From NCBI GenBank assembly GCA_017631885.1, contig JAGBSH010000017.1, positions 1 through 57,043 of the forward strand: a DNA stretch of 57,043 nt, written 5' to 3'. Every line of letters starts with the position of its first letter. Positions within the stretch are counted from its first letter, which is position 1. The notes below the pieces were generated by a model that did not search any database, was not told where the DNA came from, and worked only from the letters and a program-made list of their open reading frames with translations. This document shows positions 27,909 through 40,546 of this stretch, in pieces. The position numbers and the translations under genes are program-made. The stretch is from Fibrobacteraceae bacterium (GTDB lineage: Bacteria; Fibrobacterota; Fibrobacteria; Fibrobacterales; Fibrobacteraceae).

Positions 27909-29591
27909 TTATTGTGATATTGTTTCTGCAACTTGCACAAGATGTTCCTTAATTTTACGATACGAAGAAAGCATATCTGTATAAGTCGTAGAAATTAAAG
28001 GCTCATATTGTTCTTCTGCTAACTGACTCCAGTGCATACTTCTTAGGCTACGAACCAACTGAGTTATTTCTAAACCAATTTCACGAATTTTTTCCAATTG
28101 CTCAAAATTATTCGGAGTATTGATTTGCTGTAAAACAAGTTCAGTCAATTGTTTGTTCTTTTCATGCAAATTACGCAACCCATTTAAATGTTCTTCGTTG
28201 TATTTTAAGTTATTGTCTTGCAAACGCAAATGCAGCTTTAATATCTGGACTATATAATCAGAAGCCGTTTCTAGGTCATCACTCATTCGAAGTTGACGTT
28301 CTGCATCATTTGCAATACTCTGAGACGCTCTACCAGCAAGAAGTCTTGTCAAGAAATTAGTGACTTCTTCTTGAGCAGAATCTAAATGAGCTTCTCCTGA
28401 GAAAACGGCATCACGGCGCTTTTTCGCTTCAGGACCATCACTTAAGCATTCAAGCAAGTCGTCCATCATGTTATTCAAGGATTCACCCATTCCATAAATT
28501 TCTCTGCCAGAATGTGTAATAGCTAAAAATGGTGAGGACAATAAATGGTATTCAAGCTTTGTAGCAACCAATTTCTTTTCTGGAACTTTACTATTAAAGA
28601 ATTTTTCAAGAATTTTTGCAATGTAACTTGTGAATGGTAAAAACACAAAGAGATTCACTACATTAAATGCGGTGTGGAATGTAGCGATAGCTGTTGTCAT
28701 ATTTTCTTTTGAATATTCTATACGAGGCTCCATAGCCATTGCTGGCACATGCAATATATTTTCTAAAACAAACTGAATCCCGTGCAAATATGGTCTAAAG
28801 AGTAAAACGACCCATGCCACACCTATAACATTGAATATAATATGGAACAAAGCTACACGCCGAGCCGCTTTTGACGTTCCGATTGATGCTATAAAAGCCG
28901 TAATTGTTGAGCCAATATTTTGACCAAGAATTAAAGCTGCTGAAGTTTCAAAACAAATCAACCCTTGATAAGCAAGAGCTATAGTCACACCTAAAGTCGC
29001 AGAAGAAGATTGGACAAGAGCTGTTAGTAAGCAACCGATGACAACGCATTTTAAAATTCCTGAGAATGAATCGGCAGAAAACATTGCAAATACGCTACGG
29101 AATTTTTCTGACATAGCCAATGGTTCTAAAGCATTTTTCATTTCTTCTAAACCAATAAAAACTAAGCCAACACCTAGAATAGCATACATTGTATAGCGGA
29201 GTCGTTCATTTTTAGCGAAACAGAAAAAGAGGGCACAGATTCCAGCTAATGGTAAACCATATTTTCCAATATTTAAAACTAAAACCCAACCAGTAATAGT
29301 TGTCCCGACGTTTGCTCCCATAATAACGCCAAGCGATTGCTTTAATAGCATCATTTCGGCATTAACAAAGCCTATTGTCATAACGGTTGTAATTGCACTT
29401 GATTGCACAAGACATGTGACAACAACTCCAACCAAGACTCCTAGAAACCTATTATTGGTAACAGCTCCAATCAATCTTTTTAAGGAAGGCCCGGCCACAG
29501 TTTGCAGCCCATCGGACATAAAACGCATTCCCAGAAGGAACACACCAAGCCCCCCAAGAAGGAAGGCAAATGATTCTATAATCAATGACAC
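27909..29591 (-). CDS. Na+/phosphate cotransporter family protein with PhoU-like tail
   Basis: A 560-residue inner-membrane protein of the NptA/PNaS family. Two inverted repeats carry the family QSS motifs (CLVQSSAITTVMTIGF and ALVQSSSATLGVTIAL), with GANVGTTITGWV and GQNIGSTITAFIASIGTSKAARRVA beside them. After about nine membrane segments, the C-terminal 220 residues are helical and charged, resembling PhoU (regulatory domain). Probably imports phosphate with sodium. It is divergent from the GH9 gene across a 222-bp gap. Confidence 0.92.
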   Translation of the reverse strand: MSLIIESFAFLLGGLGVFLLGMRFMSDGLQTVAGPSLKRLIGAVTNNRFLGVLVGVVVTCLVQSSAITTVMTIGFVNAEMMLLKQSLGVIMGANVGTTITGWVLVLNIGKYGLPLAGICALFFCFAKNERLRYTMYAILGVGLVFIGLEEMKNALEPLAMSEKFRSVFAMFSADSFSGILKCVVIGCLLTALVQSSSATLGVTIALAYQGLICFETSAALILGQNIGSTITAFIASIGTSKAARRVALFHIIFNVIGVAWVVLLFRPYLHGIQFVLENILHVPAMAMEPRIEYSKENMTTAIATFHTAFNVVNLFVFLPFTSYIAKILEKFFNSKVPEKKLVATKLEYHLLSSPFLAITHSGREIYGMGESLNNMMDDLLECLSDGPEAKKRRDAVFSGEAHLDSAQEEVTNFLTRLLAGRASQSIANDAERQLRMSDDLETASDYIVQILKLHLRLQDNNLKYNEEHLNGLRNLHEKNKQLTELVLQQINTPNNFEQLEKIREIGLEITQLVRSLRSMHWSQLAEEQYEPLISTTYTDMLSSYRKIKEHLVQVAETISQ

Positions 29592-29813: not shown

Positions 29814-31685
29814 ATGAAAATCGCCAGACTATTTTTTGTTGCCTCGGCCATTTCCTCTGCCTCTTTGGCGGCAACCGCTTATCATAACCAAGTTGGGTAC
29901 CCAACAAAAGCACCAAAATACATTGCCGTAGTTGGTGCAGAAGGTAAAGACATTGTTTTTAAAGATTCTGAAAAACAAACTGTCTTAACAGTAAAAGCAC
30001 CAGAAGCTGCTTATTGGAAACCAGCTAATGAAAACGCTTCTTTGGTTGATTTTTCAGAATTACAAACTCCAGGAACGTACCTTGCTTATCTTGGGGATTC
30101 TGCAATAAGCCACCCTATTATTATTTCTGATAATGCTCTTGAAGATGCAACTATTGCTTCTCTTCGTTGGTTTTATTACCAAAGAGCATCTTTAGAATTA
30201 ACTGAAGAATTTGCTGGCAAATACGCTCGTCCAATGGGACATCCGGACACCGCTGCTAAATACCATACATTATTAGGTAAAGAATTAAATGCTACTTTTG
30301 CTAGTCCAAAAGGTTGGTATGATGCTGGTGATTATGGCAAATACATTGTAAACTCTGGTATTTCTACATATACTCTGTTACAGCTCTACCAACATAACAA
30401 AGAATATTTTAAAAAGCTTTCTTTGAATATTCCTGAAAGCAATAATGATGTCCCAGACATTCTTGACGAAATCCGTTGGAACCTTGAATGGATGCTCACT
30501 ATGCAAGATGAAGATGGTGGCGTTTTCCATAAATTGACTACGAAACAATTCTGTGGAACTGTTATGCCAGACAGAGACACCAAACCTCGTTTTGCTATTG
30601 GAAAAAGCATTACCGCTACCTGGGATTTTGTCGGCGTTTTAGCACTTGCTGCAGATATTTACAAAACATACGATGCTGAATTTTCTGAAAAAATGGCAAA
30701 AGCCGCAGGAAAAGCCTATTGGTGGGCTAAAGAACACCCTTATGATTTCTTTGAACAACCATCAGATATCGGAACAGGTTCTTATGAAGATGGTAATGCT
30801 GTAGACGAACAAATTTGGGCAACTGCAGAAATGTACAGAATTACCCAAAATGACAGTATTTTAAAAGATATGCGCCAATTTGCATTGAATAAATCACGTT
30901 GGAAACTACATGGTTGGCAAACCGTTTACGCAATGGCAGCATTTACTATTGCAACCAATCCTGATATTTTTGAAAAAGCCGATGTTGATTCGGCAAAAAA
31001 CTTGATTTTCGCTCTCGCCGATGATTATGTAGGATCTTTAGAAGAAAATGGTTATGGTGTTGCTATGACTGAAGGTGATTTCTATTGGGGTTCTAATAGT
31101 GTCGCCGCTAATAAAGGTATTGTTCTTTTACATGCTTACATGTTAACTAAAGAAGATAAATACCTCAATGCGGCCATAGGCATTTTAGATTATCTGTTAG
31201 GAAGAAATCCTCTTGACGTTTCTTATTTAACAGGGTTTGGAACAAACCAAGTTTATCACCCGCACCATCGTCCAAGCCAAGCTGATACTGTTGAAGCACC
31301 AGTGCCGGGAATGCTTGTCGGCGGGCCAAATAAATCCGCTAATGATTGCGCTAAATCTCACATTGATAAAGATGCCGTAGCAAGATCTTTCTATGATAAT
31401 TCTTGTAGCTACGCTACAAACGAAGTGGCAATTAACTGGAATGCACCTTTTGCTTACCTCGCCGGTTCATTGCATGCTATTCTTTCAGAAGGAACTGTCT
31501 ATGACATTCATTCAAAAGCAGAAAAATTTGATATCAATAGTATTCCTTCTGGAAAACCTAATTTAAACAAAATGCCTGCTGAAGGTGCTCGCATGATTTT
31601 CCGCGATGGAATGGTTCAATTAGAAAAAACAACTCGTTCTGGTGAAAAGCTGTATTTCAATTTAAACGGTAATAGAATTAAATAA
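29814..31685 (+). CDS. Exported GH9 endoglucanase with N-terminal Ig-like domain
   Basis: A 623-residue secreted cellulase that cleaves beta-1,4-glucan. Signal peptide (MKIARLFFVASAISSASLAA), then a CelD-type Ig-like domain (HNQVGYPTKAPKYIAVVG, residues about 22-105). The GH9 barrel contains the catalytic-base Asp pair in GWYDAGDYGKYIVNSG, the His motif YHPHHRPS near residue 487 and the acid in NEVAINWNAPFAYLAG near residue 545. A C-terminal tail of about 70 residues ends in basic residues (KLYFNLNGNRIK), like the basic terminal tails reported for F. succinogenes secreted enzymes. No CBM or dockerin is present. AAAGGG precedes the ATG. Transcribed alone, divergent from the phosphate symporter. 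Confidence 0.95.
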   Translation: MKIARLFFVASAISSASLAATAYHNQVGYPTKAPKYIAVVGAEGKDIVFKDSEKQTVLTVKAPEAAYWKPANENASLVDFSELQTPGTYLAYLGDSAISHPIIISDNALEDATIASLRWFYYQRASLELTEEFAGKYARPMGHPDTAAKYHTLLGKELNATFASPKGWYDAGDYGKYIVNSGISTYTLLQLYQHNKEYFKKLSLNIPESNNDVPDILDEIRWNLEWMLTMQDEDGGVFHKLTTKQFCGTVMPDRDTKPRFAIGKSITATWDFVGVLALAADIYKTYDAEFSEKMAKAAGKAYWWAKEHPYDFFEQPSDIGTGSYEDGNAVDEQIWATAEMYRITQNDSILKDMRQFALNKSRWKLHGWQTVYAMAAFTIATNPDIFEKADVDSAKNLIFALADDYVGSLEENGYGVAMTEGDFYWGSNSVAANKGIVLLHAYMLTKEDKYLNAAIGILDYLLGRNPLDVSYLTGFGTNQVYHPHHRPSQADTVEAPVPGMLVGGPNKSANDCAKSHIDKDAVARSFYDNSCSYATNEVAINWNAPFAYLAGSLHAILSEGTVYDIHSKAEKFDINSIPSGKPNLNKMPAEGARMIFRDGMVQLEKTTRSGEKLYFNLNGNRIK

Positions 31686-32252: not shown

Positions 32253-34442
32253 TTAGTGCATCCAAAACTTTTTAACCAATGCATTTTTCCCAGACTGTTT
32301 CAACAAATAAATTCCTGAAACAAATCCTTGTGAATTCTGGCGAGCCATATTCAAAGCTTCTGTGAAATCACGAGCCGTAAAGCGACGCAATTCTTTACCT
32401 TGCATATCATACAACGTATAAGAAGTTTCTTTTTGCACATTACCTAGAACTAAAGATTTCCCAATACTTGTTTCTCCATTTTCATCAAGGAATTTCAACC
32501 AGTCTACATTCACATAACTTCCTGTAATCGCAAGTTTCAAAACATGTTCACCTTCTGTAAGTGTTGCCTTACCCAGACTTACTTCTTCATAAACATCCCA
32601 AGAATCTTCAGCAGTCTGTGGACAAGTAAATTCAGCGGTAATAGCTTCTTCATCTATAAAAAGTTGAATCCCAGATGTTGTACTCCCTGACGCAACACGA
32701 GCTAAAATATCATATTCTCCAGACTTTGTTACATTCACTGTATATTCCAACCATTCACCTGATTCTGTATAACCAATGGCCATACCGCCATTATCGTTAA
32801 GAACAATATCAACGCCTTCATCTGTACGGAAACTTGCATTCCCTTGATTTTCAGATTCAGCATCGTTATAAACTTTACGAGCGCCACCCCTATCAAAATG
32901 TTCTGCTTCTATAAGATTAGGCAAAACAATCGCTTGTTCTCCATAAGGTTTCTGTGGCTCGCTTGGTTTTCCAGAGAATTCCCATTCCAAGACCCCCATT
33001 GTAGAGTCTGCAGCACCTTTAAAGACAATAAACAATTCATCTACAACACCAGAAAGCCCTGTTACTTCACATTCTGTCTGTTCGTAAGAAAGCCAACCAG
33101 AAGTCTTTGGCAATTCACATGTTCCGGCAAGAGTACCGCTAGAACTGCCTTTGCGGATTTCAATTTTATTACCATCAGCAACACTTGCTGCTGTTACTAA
33201 GAAATTCATCGCACCACCGCCAAAATCTACTCCAGAAACACGGATCCAGGAATCTTTACTTGCATAAGGAGTGAGCACATGAGAAACTGGCTTTCCACGT
33301 GTCCAGTCGGTACGGCTACGCACATTACGTTGCTTAGAACTTGTCAAAGCGGGATAAGTTCTGTAAGGATCAAAATTGGCTATTTGCTTTGGACCTTCAT
33401 TGGTATAAACCAATTTATTCAAAGCAGTTCCGTTATAAGTAAATTCATCAATACTTACACTACGATGATAAGCTGGTTCTGGATTGGCTACGCCCAAAGA
33501 AGCCGGGTGTTCAGAAGCTTGTACCAAACGTCTGTCGTGGTAAACTGCATACCATTTACCTTTAAATTCTGCAATACCATGGTGGTTATTATTATGAGCA
33601 TTTATGTTTTGCCCGTTAATATTTGGGTTATCCATAAAAATGCCCTGGTAAGTATAAGGACCTGTTACGCGGTCTGATGTGCCATAAGCAATTCTCAAAT
33701 CAGCAGTACTATAACTCAAATAGTAGGTGCTACCTTTTTTGTGAATATAAGAGGCTTCCATCGCTTTAGGGCCACCAATTTTAAGTTGGATTTTTGTATT
33801 AACATCAAATCCATCAAGCGAAGAATTGAGTCTGTAAATGTTAAAGATGTTGTTGTTGTTCTCTGCTGCCGGACGGCTATCAGAATTACCACCACCAAAT
33901 GTAAAATAACCTGTTCCATCATCATCAAAATAAATAGCAGGGTCAAAGCACCAACCGATACCATCACAATCAGATATACCACCACCCCAGTTGTGAATTA
34001 ACTTTTTATTACCTGGAATAGGGTTTTCGTATGGGCCATTGATGTTTTCTGATGCCACCATACCGACACCACCGCCACCACCATCTGGGTAAACGATATA
34101 AAACTTACCATCTGGACCAATATCTATACCAGATGCCCAAATATCATTGATGTTGTCATACTCACGTTTTGCCTCAAAAATTATACCATAGTCTGTCCAG
34201 TTTTTCATGTCGCGACTAGAAAACGCATAAAGCGATTTAATGGTATACCCGTCAGCACCAGCAGGATCATCGGAATCTGTTAAAATAAAGAATTCATCTT
34301 CACTTGCTGTTGCGGCAGGGTCTGCCAAATAGTGATAATTTGATATCGGGTTATCAGCGAAACTAATAGAGGCTATCCCAAACACAAGCCCTAACGCCAT
34401 TTTTTTATTTAGAAATGCGGCTAGACTAGCTGCTTTTTCCAT
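32253..34442 (-). CDS. Exported GH43 glycosidase with CBM6-type modules and C-terminal sorting-like domain
   Basis: A 729-residue secreted hemicellulase (arabinofuranosidase/xylosidase type). A signal segment (KKMALGLVFGIASISFA) is followed by a five-bladed propeller with YLADPAA, CFDPAIYFDDDG and KAMEASYIHKKG. These carry the expected general base Asp, pKa-modulating Asp and acid Glu. A first, diverged CBM6-like beta-sandwich (VDFGGGAMNFLVTAASVADG) is at about 400-500 and a clearer CBM6 (IEAEHFDRGGARKVYND to YVNVDWLKFLD) at about 520-640. The last 60 residues (SYTLYDMQGKELRRF to GIYLLKQSGKNALVKKFWMH) resemble type IX secretion sorting tails. The ATG at 34442 has AAAGGAG upstream. It is downstream of the TIGR02147-lipoprotein pair on the same strand. 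Confidence 0.9.
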   Translation of the reverse strand: MEKAASLAAFLNKKMALGLVFGIASISFADNPISNYHYLADPAATASEDEFFILTDSDDPAGADGYTIKSLYAFSSRDMKNWTDYGIIFEAKREYDNINDIWASGIDIGPDGKFYIVYPDGGGGGVGMVASENINGPYENPIPGNKKLIHNWGGGISDCDGIGWCFDPAIYFDDDGTGYFTFGGGNSDSRPAAENNNNIFNIYRLNSSLDGFDVNTKIQLKIGGPKAMEASYIHKKGSTYYLSYSTADLRIAYGTSDRVTGPYTYQGIFMDNPNINGQNINAHNNNHHGIAEFKGKWYAVYHDRRLVQASEHPASLGVANPEPAYHRSVSIDEFTYNGTALNKLVYTNEGPKQIANFDPYRTYPALTSSKQRNVRSRTDWTRGKPVSHVLTPYASKDSWIRVSGVDFGGGAMNFLVTAASVADGNKIEIRKGSSSGTLAGTCELPKTSGWLSYEQTECEVTGLSGVVDELFIVFKGAADSTMGVLEWEFSGKPSEPQKPYGEQAIVLPNLIEAEHFDRGGARKVYNDAESENQGNASFRTDEGVDIVLNDNGGMAIGYTESGEWLEYTVNVTKSGEYDILARVASGSTTSGIQLFIDEEAITAEFTCPQTAEDSWDVYEEVSLGKATLTEGEHVLKLAITGSYVNVDWLKFLDENGETSIGKSLVLGNVQKETSYTLYDMQGKELRRFTARDFTEALNMARQNSQGFVSGIYLLKQSGKNALVKKFWMH

Positions 34443-34513
34443 AATCACTCCTTTACGTGAGAATACAAAATCCATTGAAAAAAATAGGTCTTGTAAGTAA
34501 GCTTTTTTTTGAA

Positions 34514-34543
34514 ATACTAAAGTTTATATGGATATATTGTCAA
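34514..34543 (-). promoter_or_regulatory. Candidate GH43 promoter
   Basis: On the minus strand TTGACA (34538-34543) is followed after 18 nt by TAGTAT (34514-34519, four of six matches to TATAAT), about 72 nt before the GH43 ATG. The -35 hexamer lies within the outer arm of the terminator palindrome at 34536-34588. Confidence 0.35.
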
Positions 34544-34588
34544 CACTAAAAAACGGTCGCAAAGCGACCGTTTTTTAGTGTTGACAAT
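34536..34588. terminator. Bidirectional terminator: perfect 25-bp inverted repeat
   Basis: Arms 34536-34560 and 34564-34588 are perfectly complementary around loop AAA. The core GGTCGC / GCGACC is flanked by A6/T6 tracts, so it works in both directions, and starts 4 nt after the lipoprotein stop. The outer arms contain TTGACA in both orientations. Confidence 0.88.
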
Positions 34589-34591
34589 TAT

Positions 34592-35923
34592 TTATTCAAA
34601 TTCTTTTATTCCATAAATACTGATATCATCAATCCACATTTCATACGGACCACCTTTACCGCCGCCAAAGAAATTTAGGTTGGTCACATTCGCTTTTATA
34701 GCATCAAATCCAATATTTCCTCCGGTATAGTTAGAATCAACTTCTACCAATGAATCTGGATACACTACATAACGATTCCATACAGTATCTAATGGGAAAT
34801 GAATCCAAGCTTTACCATTCTGAAGACCAGATGTTGAATCACGCCATACATCAAATGAGAAGCTAACCCATTGAGAATCAGGTGAAGTCCCTTTCCTTGC
34901 ATAGAACACAACAGAATCCACTTCACTAAAGTCCACTGGCTCGAAGGCTTTTCCCATAAGAACCCAGTTATTATACTCATCATTAGTGTAAGTAAAGTAA
35001 GCCGCTAAACCTTCACGACCTAAACCAGCTGAAGATGCTGTCAATTTAGCTTCTGCCTCTTCAGAAACAGAAGAATACCACCCATAAGTACTATCTTCAA
35101 ATGTTTCAAAGACAAACCAAGGGTATTGTTCAACAGTATCTTCTACAACTGTATCCTGAGGGATAGTATCTACTGGTGGTGGTAAAGGTAATGGACCACC
35201 AATCACTACATCTTCTAAATGTTCTCCTGCCAACACGCCAACAGAACTTGCTCCAACAGAAAGGAAACGTCCCATACTTGTTGGCAAACCATTCGCTCCT
35301 AACATCTCGTAAATAGAATAAACAAACCCCACTACGTCAAGCATACCTGTAGGTAAAGAAGAAAATTCAAAATTACCTTCAGCATCAGTCTGTACAAAGT
35401 AATCTAGCCCGCGAATACCAACAGTTAAAGAAGACACTCCCTCTGGCAAATAAACTTTTCCAGAAAGTTTTCCTGACTTTTCTAGTTTAAGAGAAATAGA
35501 ATCTTCTACTGTTTCAATAATCATCGTTTTAAGCATGCCACGTTCAGAAGCGTTTCTAGCTTCAAGAACATAAGAACCTGACGGCAACTTTGGCAAAATT
35601 AAACGGCCAAGAGAATCTGTTTGCATATTGAGAATACCAGACGCTTCATCTGATTCAACAACTGGCGAATCAGATGAATCCCCATAAACAGTTTCTGCAA
35701 ACGCCCTAAAACTTGCATTTGCTAAGAAATCTTCTGGTCGTACAAGAACGCTAGCCTTAGCAACAGGTTGATCTTGTTCGGAAACAACAGTAACAACAAC
35801 AGCATTAGCAATGGAATTTTCCGTTTCCAAAGAAGAACCAGAAAGGTCTTCGTTTTCTGTAGAACACGAAGACAATAGAATGCTGAACATTAGCAACATC
35901 AATATTTTATGCTTTTTTGTCAT
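34592..35923 (-). CDS. Surface lipoprotein with carboxypeptidase-regulatory-like repeats and a C-terminal jelly-roll-like domain
   Basis: A 443-residue lipoprotein: lipobox LLSSC after MTKKHKILMLLMFSI. Two carboxypeptidase-regulatory-like (CarboxypepD_reg) beta-sandwich repeats (AVVVTVVSEQDQPVAKASVLV to LPKLPSGSYVLEA, and GKLSGKVYLPEG to FEFSSLPTG) follow. A proline-rich linker (PLPPPVDTIPQDT) leads to a C-terminal beta-rich domain (FETFEDSTYGWYSS to YEMWIDDISIYG) resembling carbohydrate-binding or galactose-binding jelly rolls. The ATG at 35923 overlaps the TIGR02147 gene by 17 nt; this start is chosen because it gives a proper signal peptide and has AGGAAG upstream. The exact binding target is unknown; glycan sensing is inferred from the domain type and neighbouring GH43 gene. 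Confidence 0.75.
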   Translation of the reverse strand: MTKKHKILMLLMFSILLSSCSTENEDLSGSSLETENSIANAVVVTVVSEQDQPVAKASVLVRPEDFLANASFRAFAETVYGDSSDSPVVESDEASGILNMQTDSLGRLILPKLPSGSYVLEARNASERGMLKTMIIETVEDSISLKLEKSGKLSGKVYLPEGVSSLTVGIRGLDYFVQTDAEGNFEFSSLPTGMLDVVGFVYSIYEMLGANGLPTSMGRFLSVGASSVGVLAGEHLEDVVIGGPLPLPPPVDTIPQDTVVEDTVEQYPWFVFETFEDSTYGWYSSVSEEAEAKLTASSAGLGREGLAAYFTYTNDEYNNWVLMGKAFEPVDFSEVDSVVFYARKGTSPDSQWVSFSFDVWRDSTSGLQNGKAWIHFPLDTVWNRYVVYPDSLVEVDSNYTGGNIGFDAIKANVTNLNFFGGGKGGPYEMWIDDISIYGIKEFE

Positions 35924-36776
35924 TTTCGCATTCTTCCTGTTTCTGTAACACTCCATTTTTAGCACCAACCCTAGCGACAGGATAAAAAGCCATCGATAAA
36001 TGCATCACTTTATTTGGATTTTTAGAGGCATCTACCCTTTTCTGTACTAGCCGTCTAAATTCTTTAAGCATTTCTCCTAAATCATCAAAACAAGCTTGAT
36101 CTACAGATAAAGTAAGAGTAGAAATATTTCTTTCATCTACAGGCACGTTATCCAAAGAATCACTTGCTAAAGCGAGTACTTGCTTCTGGAATTTACGAAC
36201 AGCCATCTTTTTTTCTGGTCCACCAACCGTTAAATGCGTTTCAGTCAACGCCAATTTTCCAGAAGCGACTTTTTTAACAAAACCAACTTCTAATAAAATG
36301 TCAATAGCTTCTTGAGCCTGGGCTTCTGTAATTGGCGGGCATAAATCTTTTGCAATTTGCTTAACATTTACCATTCCCCCGTTTAATTCTAAATAAGCTC
36401 TAACAGCAGGAATCCACCAATTTTCAAGTAATTTAAGTTCAGCTTCTTGTAGAGTATGACGCCTTACATCGCGCAATGCCAAAGCTTTTGCAACTAATTC
36501 TTCACGCTTGTTTTTGTCTTTTGTCATTGTGGCAGAGAAAAGCAAATCAAAGAATTCTGCTTCTCTTCCACTTAAAGCCATCATTTCTTTAGCAACAGGC
36601 AAAGCATGAACAGGCAAATGCTGTTTTTTCTGTAAGATTCTATATAAGTAGCTAGAGTCTAAGCCTAAACGATCTCCCATCATTCGATAGGAATAAAAAG
36701 GCATTTCAGCCTTTCTCTTTTCATAAAAGGCTTTCAAAAAATCTCTGTAATCAACAATATCTGAAAAAGCTAACAT
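35907..36776 (-). CDS. TIGR02147/DUF4423-family transcriptional regulator
   Basis: A 289-residue protein of a family with many paralogues in Fibrobacter. FSDIVDYRDFLKAFYEKRK is the N-terminal family signature. The region around residues 25-50 (FYSYRMMGDRLGLDSSYLYRILQKKQ) is a helix-turn-helix. A winged-helix-like middle section (VNVKQIAKDLCPPITEAQAQEAIDILLEVGFV) and the DUF4423 part (LSVDQACFDDLGEMLKEFRRLVQKRV) follow. Paralogues often stand next to exported proteins; here it overlaps a lipoprotein gene, suggesting a paired regulator and sensor or target. A CRP-type palindrome lies 98-113 nt upstream of the ATG. The DNA-binding role is predicted, not shown. Confidence 0.88.
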   Translation of the reverse strand: MLAFSDIVDYRDFLKAFYEKRKAEMPFYSYRMMGDRLGLDSSYLYRILQKKQHLPVHALPVAKEMMALSGREAEFFDLLFSATMTKDKNKREELVAKALALRDVRRHTLQEAELKLLENWWIPAVRAYLELNGGMVNVKQIAKDLCPPITEAQAQEAIDILLEVGFVKKVASGKLALTETHLTVGGPEKKMAVRKFQKQVLALASDSLDNVPVDERNISTLTLSVDQACFDDLGEMLKEFRRLVQKRVDASKNPNKVMHLSMAFYPVARVGAKNGVLQKQEECENDKKA

Positions 36777-36850
36777 AAAATCTTTCCATATTTAACAAAT
36801 ATTAAGATAGACATTTACTCCTTTAAGTAATTATGCATCGAAAAAACAGC

Positions 36851-36867
36851 ATGGACAGATTGTCCAT
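36851..36867. promoter_or_regulatory. Inverted repeat ATGGACA-GAT-TGTCCAT
   Basis: Perfect 7-bp arms with a 3-nt centre, in the 275-bp gap between the divergent TIGR02147 and recC genes, next to the CRP-type site. A possible operator for the TIGR02147 protein or another regulator. Confidence 0.4.
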
Positions 36868-36870
36868 ACC

Positions 36871-36892
36871 AAGTGTGATGGTCGTCACATTT
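36871..36892. promoter_or_regulatory. CRP/FNR-family binding site, near-perfect consensus
   Basis: TGTGA-N6-TCACA (36874-36889) with AAG and TTT flanks matches 16 of 22 positions of the E. coli CRP consensus, including all the conserved contact positions. It is 98-113 nt upstream of the TIGR02147 gene and about 160 nt before recC. Whether a CRP-type protein binds it here is inferred. Confidence 0.55.
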
Positions 36893-37051
36893 CTAAGATT
36901 CCACTCTCATTTTTCTTTCCAAAAACTTACAAAAACCTTTCATCTGCCAAAGCTAGTCCGTTTTAAAATTTGCTTTTAATTTTCTAAAGAAAAAACAAGC
37001 CTTTTTAGCATTTGTCAAAATTTGTCATTTCTAATAATGTATATTGCAAAT

Positions 37052-40000
37052 ATGGCCCTTACACTTCGTTTTGCATTAAATCTTGAAAATCTTGCCGATG
37101 AAATGATTGAAAAAATTTCATCTGTATGGAAATCTCCTTTTGACGCCCCTATTGTTATTTTTCCTGATGCGAAACTTGAACAATGGTTTCGTTTACGTTG
37201 GTTAGAAAAAAAAGGTACTTTGGCTAATTTTAACAAAACAAGCGTAGATCGCTTTTTGTTTGATATACTTGTTGGTGAAAATGACAAACTTAAAAAATTA
37301 TCTTCTGATATGTTGAGAAATGTCATTATATCTTACCTATCTTCCAAAAATACCGAAGGCAAATACAACTATGAATCCTTAACTCCTAATGGGGATTTAA
37401 AAAAATTTCTTGAATTTGATGGTAAAATCAATGCTAAACGTTTATTTGATTTAGCAAACACACTCTCGGCACTTTTTCTTGAATACGAAATCAGCAGACC
37501 GAGTGGTTTTATTACCAATGAAAAAGGCATTTTAGATTGTTGGAAAGAAAACAATCTCTCAGATTTTTTTGTAAAAAAAAACAAATCGGGCGAATTTGAA
37601 TCCATAAAAAATGAAGATTGGGAACGCGAACTTTATTCTAAGATTTTCCACAACATTAATGGAAAATCTCTTTTAACATCTGTTTTTGAAAAAGCCGCTA
37701 AAAATAACGAAATTCCAGCGAATACACGATTTTTAACTCTTCCGTTTCTTTATAAAGAATGCCTTAATTCTGAAAACAAACCTGTATTTAAATACAACAA
37801 ACAAACGCCCGTTTTTATTTTTGGACTTTCCGGCTTAGGTCAATTTTATCGAATTGTTTTACGAGAATTTGCAAGTCAATACGATATTTATGCCTACATA
37901 CAAAATCCTTGCATGCAATTTTGGGAAGATCATGAATTTTCAAAATCAGTTAAAATACCAATAACTATTGATGGCGAAGATTTTCAAGAAGAAAATTATC
38001 AATTTCAGAATCCTTTGTTACAAGCTTGGGGAAAAGCTGGTTGTGACAACATAAAACTTTGGTGCCTTTCTGATGACTATAGCTCTTGCGAATTTCCAGA
38101 AAAAGAAACTGAAACTAATGAAAAACCTGTTTCTAACAAATTACTGCACTTAATACAACATTCTATCGCCAACCGTTTTTCTGCACAAGACTTACAAAAT
38201 TCTATCCAACAACATAAAATTTCTATTCATGAAAATGATGAGTCACTAACTATTGATGGGGCTCCTAGTAAAATCCGTGAAATTGAAAATCTCCATTCAC
38301 GTCTTTGCCAATTGCTTTTAAACGGAGCTAATTTGAATGAAATTTTAATAGTGTCTCCTAATTTAGAAGAATACCGCAGTGCCATTTATCAAATTTTCAA
38401 TCAAGCTAAAATCAAAGCGGAAAAAGAACTTTCTTCTTCACAAAAAACAACTTTATACATTCCCTATAACATTATTGATTCAGCGCAAAAAGATTCTCAT
38501 ATAAACAACGCTCTAACCATTCTTTTCAACATAAAAAAATCAAAAAATATTTCTCGCCCAGACTTTTTCAATTTACTTAAAAACCCTGTTATTCAAGCCG
38601 TTTGGAAAATAGATGATTACGCCATTTCTTGCTTTGAAAATTGGGTAAAAAACATAAATATTTATCGCAACAAACCTGAAAAAGAATCCGATTGGGCTTT
38701 AGGTATCAAACGTTTATTACTTGCCAAACTAACAAATGATTCTTTTGCATTAAACGAAAACGTTTTTTTCCCGTATTCTAATCTTGATACAAGCAACAAT
38801 TCTTTGCTTTTAAAATTCATTAATGCTATAGAATCTTTAGAAAATTGGATAAAAGATTTTGATGAAGAATTAAAAGAAAGCGATTTAAATTCACTACAAG
38901 ATTTTTTAAACTCTTGGTTAGCTCTTCCTTATTTTAATGAAGATTTAGCAGAAGAAATTTTTATTTATCAAGAAGTTTTAAAAACTTTTAACAATTTGAA
39001 ATACTTCTTTTTTGCAGGCAATGAAAAACTTTCTTTAGACATTATTTTTCAATGTCTCACCAATTCAGCAATTTCTTCCGAATATAGTTTTGGGAGCTTA
39101 TTTGTCAACGGTGTTACGTTCATGAAATTTGCACCAAACCGCACCATTCCTGTAAAACATTTATTCTTTATTGGAGCTGATTCCAACTCTTTCCCTGGCA
39201 TTTCTAATTCAAACACTCTTGATTTAAGAAAATCTCTTTACCCTTGGCCTGGTGATGACTCTAAACAAGAACGCAATCGTTATGCTTTTTTGTGCCAACT
39301 CACTAGCACTTCAGAAAGTTTCCATATCAGTTATCAAAATGCCAACTTAACAAAAGATAGTGAAATTTTTCCTACACCTTTGATAAATGATTTAATCCAT
39401 TTTGTAAAAGATTTTTCTTCAAAAGAAATCTTAAACATAAACTCTATACCTCTTGATGAAACAAGAAATATAGATTCCATTTTTACAAGACGCGGCTTAC
39501 GTTATAAGCAATCTATAAATAAAATCAATTCGCCACAATCTTTTGAAAACGAACTTACTTCTAAAGAAAAAGCTAAAACTAAAAAAAGTTTGCCTTCTAA
39601 AATTAAATTAAAAGATTTGTCAAAATTTTTAAAAGACCCATTTATATTCTTTGCTGAAAATAAAATGAATTTTAAAGAGAGTAATATTTCTTCTACAGAA
39701 ATATCTTTTGAGCCTATTGAATTAAACAATCTAGACCAATCTATTTTCTTGAACCAATCTATTGCTATTTCTCTTGGATTAAATTGTAATTATACAGATT
39801 TAGATACTTTCCTCAAGAATTCTCAACAAATGGGAAACATCCCTCACGATGAATTTGGTGAAAGGGTAATAAAAGAATTAAAAGAAAATGTAAAATTTTT
39901 CTGTAAGAAAATCAAAGACCTATTCCCGCAAGATAAATATGAATATTCTTCTTTCTCTTTAAATTTCCCATTAGAAGTAAACTTAAAAAAAGAAAAACAC

Positions 40001-40546
40001 TCTGTACATTTATATGCTGATATTCCTCTATTGATTAAAAACTCAACCGATAAAACAGAAAATTTTATCGTTATTTTCAAAGACAAAGCTTATAGTAAAA
40101 ATGATATTGTAAAAATCATGCAAGATATTCTTGAACCTTACATTTATGCTTTAGCTTTATTAGCTTCTAATGAAGTAGAAAAAATTGATATTTGTCTTAT
40201 AAATCAAAGCGAACCTATTCGTTGTTCCATTTCTCAAGATTCTAATTTAGCTAGAAACATTTTGCAAAAGATTTTTGAAAAAGCCTTTATCAAAGAATAC
40301 AAGAAAATATTACCCTTTTCTCTATTCTATGAAAATATTGAATCTTTTGAAGTTCTAAAAGATAAACTTGTCGGAGAACACGGGCCATGGTCTTATTTCT
40401 CTGGAAAAACATTTTTTGATATAACAGATGAAAATATTTCTGGTTTTTCTGACGACGATAATGTTTTCAAAGAATCTTGGAATAGAGAAATCCAAGAACA
40501 AAGAGAGCTGGTTAAAGATCTTGAAGGAGTAACAAAATGGAATTAG
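37052..40546 (+). CDS. recC: Exodeoxyribonuclease V subunit gamma
   Basis: The Chi-scanning scaffold subunit of RecBCD, with a degenerate helicase core. 1,164 residues, close to the E. coli length. The N-terminus (LRFALNLENLADEMIEKI, IVIFPDAKLEQWFRLRWLEKKG) and FIFGLSGLGQFYRIVLREFA match RecC blocks. Later come ILIVSPNLEEYRSAIYQIF and VKHLFFIGADSNSFPG. No intact Walker A is seen, as expected. The start at 37052 is preferred because the protein then begins like other RecC chains; an ATG at 37037 is possible. It overlaps recB by 10 nt. The Chi sequence of this organism cannot be read from the window. Confidence 0.92.
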   Translation: MALTLRFALNLENLADEMIEKISSVWKSPFDAPIVIFPDAKLEQWFRLRWLEKKGTLANFNKTSVDRFLFDILVGENDKLKKLSSDMLRNVIISYLSSKNTEGKYNYESLTPNGDLKKFLEFDGKINAKRLFDLANTLSALFLEYEISRPSGFITNEKGILDCWKENNLSDFFVKKNKSGEFESIKNEDWERELYSKIFHNINGKSLLTSVFEKAAKNNEIPANTRFLTLPFLYKECLNSENKPVFKYNKQTPVFIFGLSGLGQFYRIVLREFASQYDIYAYIQNPCMQFWEDHEFSKSVKIPITIDGEDFQEENYQFQNPLLQAWGKAGCDNIKLWCLSDDYSSCEFPEKETETNEKPVSNKLLHLIQHSIANRFSAQDLQNSIQQHKISIHENDESLTIDGAPSKIREIENLHSRLCQLLLNGANLNEILIVSPNLEEYRSAIYQIFNQAKIKAEKELSSSQKTTLYIPYNIIDSAQKDSHINNALTILFNIKKSKNISRPDFFNLLKNPVIQAVWKIDDYAISCFENWVKNINIYRNKPEKESDWALGIKRLLLAKLTNDSFALNENVFFPYSNLDTSNNSLLLKFINAIESLENWIKDFDEELKESDLNSLQDFLNSWLALPYFNEDLAEEIFIYQEVLKTFNNLKYFFFAGNEKLSLDIIFQCLTNSAISSEYSFGSLFVNGVTFMKFAPNRTIPVKHLFFIGADSNSFPGISNSNTLDLRKSLYPWPGDDSKQERNRYAFLCQLTSTSESFHISYQNANLTKDSEIFPTPLINDLIHFVKDFSSKEILNINSIPLDETRNIDSIFTRRGLRYKQSINKINSPQSFENELTSKEKAKTKKSLPSKIKLKDLSKFLKDPFIFFAENKMNFKESNISSTEISFEPIELNNLDQSIFLNQSIAISLGLNCNYTDLDTFLKNSQQMGNIPHDEFGERVIKELKENVKFFCKKIKDLFPQDKYEYSSFSLNFPLEVNLKKEKHSVHLYADIPLLIKNSTDKTENFIVIFKDKAYSKNDIVKIMQDILEPYIYALALLASNEVEKIDICLINQSEPIRCSISQDSNLARNILQKIFEKAFIKEYKKILPFSLFYENIESFEVLKDKLVGEHGPWSYFSGKTFFDITDENISGFSDDDNVFKESWNREIQEQRELVKDLEGVTKWN

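Follow-up and report, generated by a model that had tools for sequence, protein, structure and literature searches.

On the minus strand of the window, the whole 57-kb stretch of DNA analysed here, lie a CRP-type site, a gene for a TIGR02147/DUF4423 regulator, an overlapping lipoprotein gene and a GH43-CBM6 gene (Table 1). The first-pass annotation had named the same four parts, and all are found where it put them. By profile score, the regulator is a clear member of TIGR02147 (Fsuc_second)/DUF4423, reaching 189 bits against TIGR02147 (cut-off 50; residues 8-268) and 104 bits against DUF4423. Its AlphaFold2 model has a pLDDT of 70, which is moderate, and fold searches returned weak helix-turn-helix (HTH) and winged-helix matches and nothing stronger. 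Orthologues, mostly 74-81% identical, occur in about 50 Fibrobacter genomes.

The proposed 17-nt overlap between regulator and lipoprotein genes is exact. The lipoprotein carries an LSSC lipobox ending at residue 20, and Foldseek aligned its C-terminal domain with the CBM11 structures 6r3m and 1v0a (probability 1.0; TM 0.74-0.75 by target length), bearing out the carbohydrate-binding-like domain proposed earlier. As Pfam CBM11 gave no sequence match to this domain, we describe it as having a CBM11-like fold rather than as a CBM11 member. Downstream, the GH43-CBM6 gene likely starts at ATG 34442, which is preceded by AAAGGAG, and its product ends in a weak T9SS-type tail, scoring 20.4 bits against TIGR04183 (T9SS cargo), under the cut-off of 23. 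A very strong hairpin sets this gene apart from the lipoprotein gene. The GH43 gene has a promoter region of its own, with an operator (O2) and a -10-like element; a promoter-like site for this gene had been noted at first pass.

Table 1. Features of the locus, in order of position in the window.
Feature	Position	Strand	Details
GH43-CBM6 gene	32253..34475	-	Pfam GH43 111 bits, CBM6 125 bits, above cut-off
-10-like element TATTTT, GH43 promoter	34481..34486	-	50 nt from O2 centre
Operator O2, GTTGACAATATATCCATA, upstream of GH43	34527..34544	-	20.1 bits, matrix built without the window
Terminator-like hairpin, lipoprotein/GH43 intergenic	34536..34588	-	-39.5 kcal/mol, z -13.4; overlaps O2
Partner lipoprotein	34592..35923	-	443 aa; ATG at 35923; lipobox, tag, Ig/transthyretin-like spacer domains, CBM11-fold domain
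Carbohydrate-binding-like C-terminal domain	34604..35131	-	CBM11/4/22/30 jelly roll (Foldseek)
Tag, LSGSSLETENSIA	35807..35845	-	Residues 27-39; 7-19 residues past the lipidated Cys
Regulator/lipoprotein gene overlap	35907..35923	-	17 nt (sequence)
TIGR02147/DUF4423 regulator	35907..36776	-	289 aa; N-terminal lambda-type HTH, winged helix, C-terminal helices (AlphaFold2)
-10-like element TATCTT, regulator promoter	36804..36809	-	TAnnTT starts 49.5-51.5 nt from operator centre in orthologous promoters
Operator O1, ATGGACAATCTGTCCATG, upstream of regulator	36850..36867	-	20.4 bits, matrix built without the window
CRP-type palindrome TGTGA-N6-TCACA, TGTGACGACCATCACA, upstream of regulator	36874..36889	-	Exact consensus

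Upstream of the regulator in orthologous loci we identified a conserved 18-bp palindrome, TTGGACAAAACGTCCATA. Of 51 such upstream regions, 48 contain a site of this pattern, the figure for random windows being 1.5 of 51. Using a matrix built from the orthologous sites with the window left out, we found only two strong sites in the 57 kb, one before the regulator and one before GH43, with the next best scoring 9.1; shuffling produced 28 sites scoring 16 bits or more across 200 × 57 kb. A GH43 gene follows the regulator-lipoprotein pair in nearly all of the about 50 orthologous Fibrobacter loci, and wherever its start could be placed (43/43) an operator site stands ahead of it, while the 628 kb of these loci hold just 14 others that reach 15 bits. 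The pair and the GH43 gene co-vary, as the first-pass annotation had anticipated.

The operators keep a fixed distance from a -10-like element. Measured from the operator centre, TAnnTT lies at 49.5-51.5 nt in the regulator promoters of the orthologues (51 occurrences over 51 promoters) and at 50-52 nt in 32 of 34 regulon promoters. An operator about 50 bp upstream of TAnnTT is in an activator-like position, and the spacing would correspond to class I-type geometry (-61 to -64), a placement that depends on the predicted transcription start.

The exact CRP-type consensus before the regulator occurs once in 57 kb (0.02 expected), and the full 2.37-Mb genome has two distinct occurrences. Among 51 orthologous upstream regions, 24 also have the motif, at -104 to -126 and with differing N6 and flanks, compared with 0.6% of random 200-bp windows; it is therefore more than a chance match. 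Its centre lies 23, 32, 34 or 43 bp from that of the operator, or about 2, 3 or 4 helical turns. A CRP whose recognition helix reads RETVSR is encoded in the genome and, together with the conserved consensus site, marks the regulator promoter as putatively CRP-regulated. None of the enzyme-gene operators has a CRP-type site within 60 bp, and the site is confined to the regulator. Given this and the genome's two perfect sites, we rejected it as a general feature of TIGR02147 promoters.

Across the genome, the operator is found at unlinked loci encoding xylanases, GH43s, esterases and other hemicellulases. Against a reversed-pattern control, four genomes gave 16/0, 12/2, 22/1 and 16/0 strand-hits. 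In the present genome it precedes genes for GH10, GH11, two further GH43s, CE6/SASA, esterase-like proteins and a pectate lyase, and in relatives also GH27, GH2, GH95 and GH141. One relative (G055) combines the orthologous regulator with a 43-kb cluster of GH43, GH10, GH27, GH2 and CE6 genes bearing 11 operator sites. The promoter of C7, a paralogous regulator with 55% identity, also has the operator in this genome, and both proteins may bind it. Sites are more numerous in genomes with a regulator orthologue than in those without (p = 9e-5), a negative control that is partly confounded in that genomes lacking the orthologue may also lack xylanases. G065, a 99% complete genome of the same genus as most orthologue-bearing genomes, is without the orthologue, and has 3 sites where the control has 4. 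On the opposing side, two large and distantly related genomes, G004 and G010, gave 5 and 9 hits, respectively, versus 0. The operator and its unlinked regulon, which went beyond the view of the first-pass annotation, constitute the strongest evidence.

Pairing with an exported protein is a family trait. Directly downstream of TIGR02147 genes, we found a lipoprotein or signal-bearing protein in 117 of 125 cases, against a background of 6/101 for lipoproteins and 40/101 for any signal or transmembrane segment. This is the enrichment beside exported proteins that had been predicted, as were many paralogous pairs per genome: the count of TIGR02147 genes is 7 here and ranges from 23 to 39 among relatives. 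Paired genes typically overlap, or are separated, by a few nt, and 39 of 120 pairs share exactly ATGA (-4). The domains of the partner proteins differ widely, and lipoproteins that differ in this way have a tag class in common. In the present lipoprotein the tag region is predicted to be disordered, and its ETEN is invariant among 37 orthologues. The codons of the invariant residues vary freely, which rules out a DNA or RNA signal and indicates that selection acts on the tag as protein.

Taking these data together, we favour, with a probability of about 0.8, a CRP-gated activator that controls a hemicellulase regulon and has a surface lipoprotein of CBM11 fold as its cognate partner. The genes, their coupling, the operators, promoter spacing, regulon membership, tag and CBM fold are all established at the level of sequence. 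The TIGR02147 protein would be a DNA-binding transcription factor, and very probably itself binds the palindrome, whose centre is about 62 bp ahead of the predicted transcription start. Under its control, probably by activation, would be its own operon (regulator and lipoprotein), the neighbouring GH43 gene and hemicellulose-degrading genes throughout the genome. A CRP-type protein bound beside the operator at the regulator promoter only would make the entire regulon depend on carbon or growth state. We regard this gating as fairly likely, although only 24 of the 51 loci have a CRP-type site of this pattern. The co-translated lipoprotein would be a tagged envelope protein that modulates the regulator, either as its cognate sensor or as a substrate-binding partner. 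The idea of a glycan-sensing module is accordingly upheld in part: the pairing with exported proteins and the co-variation with GH43 stand, and a signal from lipoprotein to regulator is something we infer tentatively, at somewhat under even odds. Literature searches turned up no study of this regulator by binding or expression experiments.

The operator could instead belong to a different transcription factor controlling both the hemicellulases and the TIGR02147-lipoprotein operon, which would make the TIGR02147 protein a target. A palindrome may stand ahead of a regulator gene without binding that gene's product, and a CRP-type site is also present at this promoter. However, across about 50 genomes the regulator is the operator's constant neighbour, operator excess tracks the presence of its orthologue, the protein has HTH and winged-helix-like parts, and different palindromes or footprints precede the genes of other paralogous regulators; we consider a separate factor improbable. 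If the TIGR02147 protein is the binding factor, it might be a repressor relieved by a signal, and autoregulatory operators are common for repressors. The operator centre, at constant spacing about 50 nt upstream of the -10 element, lies behind the core promoter, with the CRP sites further upstream in helical phase as in araBAD-type activation, and repression is on this evidence unlikely.

The tag sits right after the lipidated Cys, where Bacteroidota lipoprotein export signals lie, and could on that ground be a general surface-export signal of Fibrobacterota lipoproteins. Yet nearly all matches to a tag-covering profile at E<1e-4 in three genomes adjoin TIGR02147 genes, while many other lipoproteins match through the lipobox part only, leaving a general signal with little likelihood. 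A much stronger contender, if still short of an even chance, is that the lipoprotein is, like Bacteroides SGBPs, a co-regulated protein for surface binding or adhesion that carries no signal, with CRP and a cytoplasmic ligand controlling the regulator. Its CBM11-fold domain and similarity to the SGBP-B structure fit this, the gene overlap could merely set stoichiometry, and in F. succinogenes the CBM6 hemicellulases go up when growth is slow, with no xylan present (PMC6204037). Simple co-expression nevertheless fails to explain either the near-universal pairing despite such different partner domains or the confinement of the disordered tag largely to TIGR02147 partners, and a cytoplasmic xylan signal is unlikely in F. 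succinogenes, which reportedly lacks xylose and xylodextrin import (PMC3079729). Because of the same response to slow growth, and because these hemicellulases stay low in cells adhering to cellulose (PMC6204037), the input to the favoured CRP-gated activator may be carbon or growth state (through CRP) or cellulose attachment rather than xylan.

The arrangement resembles Bacteroidota PULs (SusC/D with HTCS or ECF/anti-sigma, and SGBP lipoproteins) in that a regulator, a glycan-binding-like surface lipoprotein, whose fold is like that of SGBP-B, and CAZyme genes are clustered and co-regulated. Unlike in PULs, the regulator here is a one-component cytoplasmic protein translationally coupled to the lipoprotein, the pair lacks a transmembrane sensor and the regulon is scattered over unlinked loci. 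The promoter recalls AraC/CRP-type promoters such as araBAD, where the pathway-specific factor sits near -62 and CRP further upstream in helical phase; in contrast to araBAD, the present regulator belongs to an unrelated protein family and the CRP site is at the regulator only, the enzyme genes having none. The cluster in G055 contains the same kinds of enzymes as the F. succinogenes xylan cluster Fisuc_1762-1804 (PMC3079729), an equivalence judged from gene content. Two metal-dependent response regulators were suggested as controllers of that cluster (PMC3079729), whereas the present evidence points to TIGR02147. RNA-seq has shown CBM6, GH10, GH43 and CE6 hemicellulases to be tightly co-regulated on slow growth, with no regulator named (PMC6204037).

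Fibrobacter are major fibre degraders of the herbivore gut, and how they control plant-wall enzymes has been posed as an unanswered question (PMC3079729). A candidate regulator, operator, promoter geometry, CRP input and target list make the hemicellulose part of that question directly testable. The operator shared with an unlinked hemicellulase regulon and the tag shared by otherwise different partner lipoproteins are new, and the latter, now exposed, calls for explanation. The TIGR02147/DUF4423 models bear no functional name, and the present case adds a predicted operator, promoter position and regulon, and hence a proposed function for a family with up to dozens of members per genome. More speculatively, TIGR02147 proteins and tagged lipoproteins might together make up a hitherto undescribed family of envelope-to-gene signalling systems that spans the phylum, each genome having dozens of such pairs in parallel. 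The conserved anchor-proximal tag would be the transducing element, with the regulator binding it before the lipoprotein is exported, for example, or a common partner doing so in the envelope, and variable outer domains (CBM, Laminin-G-like, FISUMP) would set what is sensed. The papers searched, to which this negative is confined, held no description of a coupled tagged-lipoprotein partner of TIGR02147; a Bdellovibrio DUF4423 protein is mentioned in PMC12546842. Viral contigs yielded no relatives.

In other clades, a palindrome 50 bp from TAnnTT proved only a partial pattern and was set aside as a family-wide rule: among 43 leaderless-type promoters, 6 have a near-perfect palindrome at 48-51.5, other bands yielding 0-2, and the averaged profile has no sharp peak. 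In a second clade (L114 type), the conserved footprint upstream is of another kind.

The module in the window, part of a 2.37-Mb, 98.8%-complete genome (G000:C24:1-57043), is a real regulatory module, and its regulator is a predicted activator of a hemicellulase regulon that probably takes input from CRP and has a tagged lipoprotein as its cognate partner. Every module part named in the first-pass annotation was found in the window sequence. The protein assigned there to TIGR02147 reached 189 bits with the model of that family, whose cut-off is 50, and 104 bits with DUF4423, and the claimed 17-nt overlap between the regulator and lipoprotein genes proved exact. A hairpin of -39.5 kcal/mol lies between the lipoprotein and GH43-CBM6 genes. 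It overlaps operator O2, and at several other loci operators also come right after terminator-like hairpins.

Coordinates of the module, its neighbours and related loci
Feature	Position	Strand	Remark
TIGR02147 regulator	35907-36776	-	
Partner lipoprotein	34592-35923	-	ATG at 35923
GH43-CBM6 gene	34442 (ATG)	-	probable start; AAAGGAG in front
CRP-type site	36874-36889		
Operator O1, before regulator	36850-36867		20.4 bits
Operator O2, before GH43	34527-34544		20.1 bits
Terminator-like hairpin	34536-34588		3' of lipoprotein gene; overlaps O2
GH9 enzyme, CelD_N domain	29814-31685		window neighbour
Na/Pi cotransporter, PhoU domain	27909-29591		window neighbour
RecC-like exonuclease V subunit	37022-40546		window neighbour; divergent from regulator
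Paralogous regulator L119	G000:C7:18252-19043		
Operator-rich cluster, G055	C2:367.7-410.7 kb		
Tail-to-tail/nearby pair, L311	2336-3958 and 4007-4855		
Degenerate regulator locus, L272	G033:C1:1353387-1355150		

Scanning genome contigs, we identified 52 orthologous loci, mainly from Fibrobacter MAGs, with regulator identities of 74-81% for nearly all. The order regulator, lipoprotein, GH43 on one strand is kept in nearly all, GH43 lying immediately downstream of the pair or one gene further. No GH43 was found in L220, L224 or L226 (the last two short on one side), L222 has a weak match on the regulator's opposite side, and matches in L206, L207, L209, L213 and L215 are weaker and partial only.

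Aligned regions upstream of the orthologous regulators (n=51) revealed two footprints. The first, TGTGA-N6-TCAC, is present in 24 of 51, while the second, TTGGACAAAACGTCCATA, occurs by pattern in 48 of 51 compared with a mean of 1.5/51 in random windows. Across the 57 kb, a matrix of the second footprint built without the window matched only O1 and O2 (next score, 9.1 bits); O1, in the stretch shared by the regulator and the RecC-like gene, was its only hit before the three neighbouring genes. In every one of the 43 loci where the start of a downstream GH43 could be placed, an operator lies 20-260 bp 5' of such a start; across 628 kb of orthologous loci, a further 14 sites reached 15 bits or more.

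In 32/34 regulon promoters (four genomes), the start of a -10-like TAnnTT element is 50-52 nt away from the centre of the operator, and regulator promoters (n=51) contain 51 occurrences at 49.5-51.5 nt. Should TAnnTT serve as the -10 element, the centre of the operator would fall near -62, where activators typically bind at sigma-70 promoters. The CRP-type site is found at the regulator only. Its distance to the centre of the operator is 23, 32, 34 or 43 bp, close to integral numbers of helical turns, and the window genome encodes a CRP-family protein with a RETVSR recognition helix.

Genome-wide strand-hits of the pattern TKGAYAANNNRTCMAY versus its reversed control were 16/0, 12/2, 22/1 and 16/0 in four genomes. 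Nearly all sites examined in the window genome are intergenic and shortly 5' of a gene, with one weak site inside a gene. Besides the window regulator and its GH43-CBM6 gene, the genes preceded encode CE6/SASA-CBM6, GH10-CBM6, GH43-CBM6, GH43_C2-CBM6 and GH11 enzymes, a PETase-like esterase, a pectate lyase and two proteins resembling feruloyl-esterase-type enzymes (judged by eye; no Pfam esterase match). The same kinds of genes follow operators in two relatives, G001 and G033. In G055, 11 pattern sites fall within one cluster carrying GH10, GH95, GH2, GH27, GH43, CE6 and the orthologous regulator, matching in gene content the xylan cluster already known from F. succinogenes (PMC3079729). The promoter of L119, whose product is 55% identical to the window regulator, also contains the operator, making cross-regulation possible.

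Site excess tracks the regulator. The 17 genomes with an orthologue (51% identity or more; one fragmentary) had a median of 9 sites above control, compared with 0 in ten genomes lacking it (p = 9e-5, enzyme content uncontrolled). G065, from the genus of most orthologue-bearing genomes, has neither orthologue nor excess. At L272, a degenerate regulator fragment (38 bits) adjoins a tagged lipoprotein gene and two operator sites remain.

The CBM6 hemicellulases of F. succinogenes S85 show tight co-regulation and rise on slow growth without needing xylan, with no rise in cellulose-adherent cells (PMC6204037); the species reportedly lacks xylose and xylodextrin uptake (PMC3079729). TIGR02147 was not named in the literature our search found. 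A CRP-gated regulator would fit a slow-growth signal. In the regulator model (pLDDT 70), a helical, HTH-like part at the N-terminus and a part resembling a winged helix are followed by two helices at the C-terminus. The lipoprotein model (pLDDT 82) has beta-sandwich spacers and, at the C-terminus, a domain that matches CBM11 with probability 1.0 and a TM of 0.74-0.75 by target length; CBM4, CBM22, CBM30 and SGBP-B were matched too. We infer that a surface protein with a beta-glucan-type CBM fold of this kind could report on attachment to cellulose or on hemicellulose.

Lipoprotein pairing extends across the family, which is present in 141/151 sampled genomes of the phylum and 0/14 control genomes, with 7 genes in the window genome and up to 23 and 39 in relatives. 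For 117 of 125 distinct TIGR02147 genes, the next gene downstream is on the same strand and encodes a lipoprotein or another protein with a signal sequence; visual inspection dismissed three automatic calls as spurious short ORFs, and for five genes no partner was called. Applied to 101 genes in control regions of the window genome, this crude procedure yielded 6 lipoproteins plus 34 further proteins with a signal or TM segment. Junctions are mostly overlaps or gaps of a few nt, with exactly 4-nt overlaps in 39. In an exception clade (L311, L310) the tagged lipoprotein gene is tail-to-tail or nearby, and in L095 it lies 5' of the regulator gene. Partner domains vary (CarboxypepD_reg in 30/63, FISUMP in 7, Laminin_G_3 in 4, CBM4_9 in 4).

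Directly past the lipidated Cys, partners share the consensus C-S-x(2-10)-[VI]-[AS]-G-x(2-3)-[TS]-[ED]-x-x-[NS]-x-[IV]-A. Judging match lists of a 41-position profile by eye, strong tag-covering matches were almost confined to lipoproteins beside TIGR02147 genes or within their clusters, while many others matched in the lipobox part only. ETEN is invariant across 37 orthologues of the window lipoprotein, whose mean column identity is 43% (85% for regulators from the same loci). With variable codons and predicted disorder of this region in the window lipoprotein, the tag looks like a linear protein motif.

Among 75 non-redundant TIGR02147 genes outside the window clade, TAnnTT starts 12 or 13 nt 5' of the ATG in about 32 and lies within -17 to -11 in 43, a placement suggestive of leaderless transcription for many of them. 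A second clade (L277-L306, L114) has its own conserved upstream footprint, TTCTCnAAnTGTTCTTTT ... GTGTTCCCAAAAA, unlike that of the window clade.
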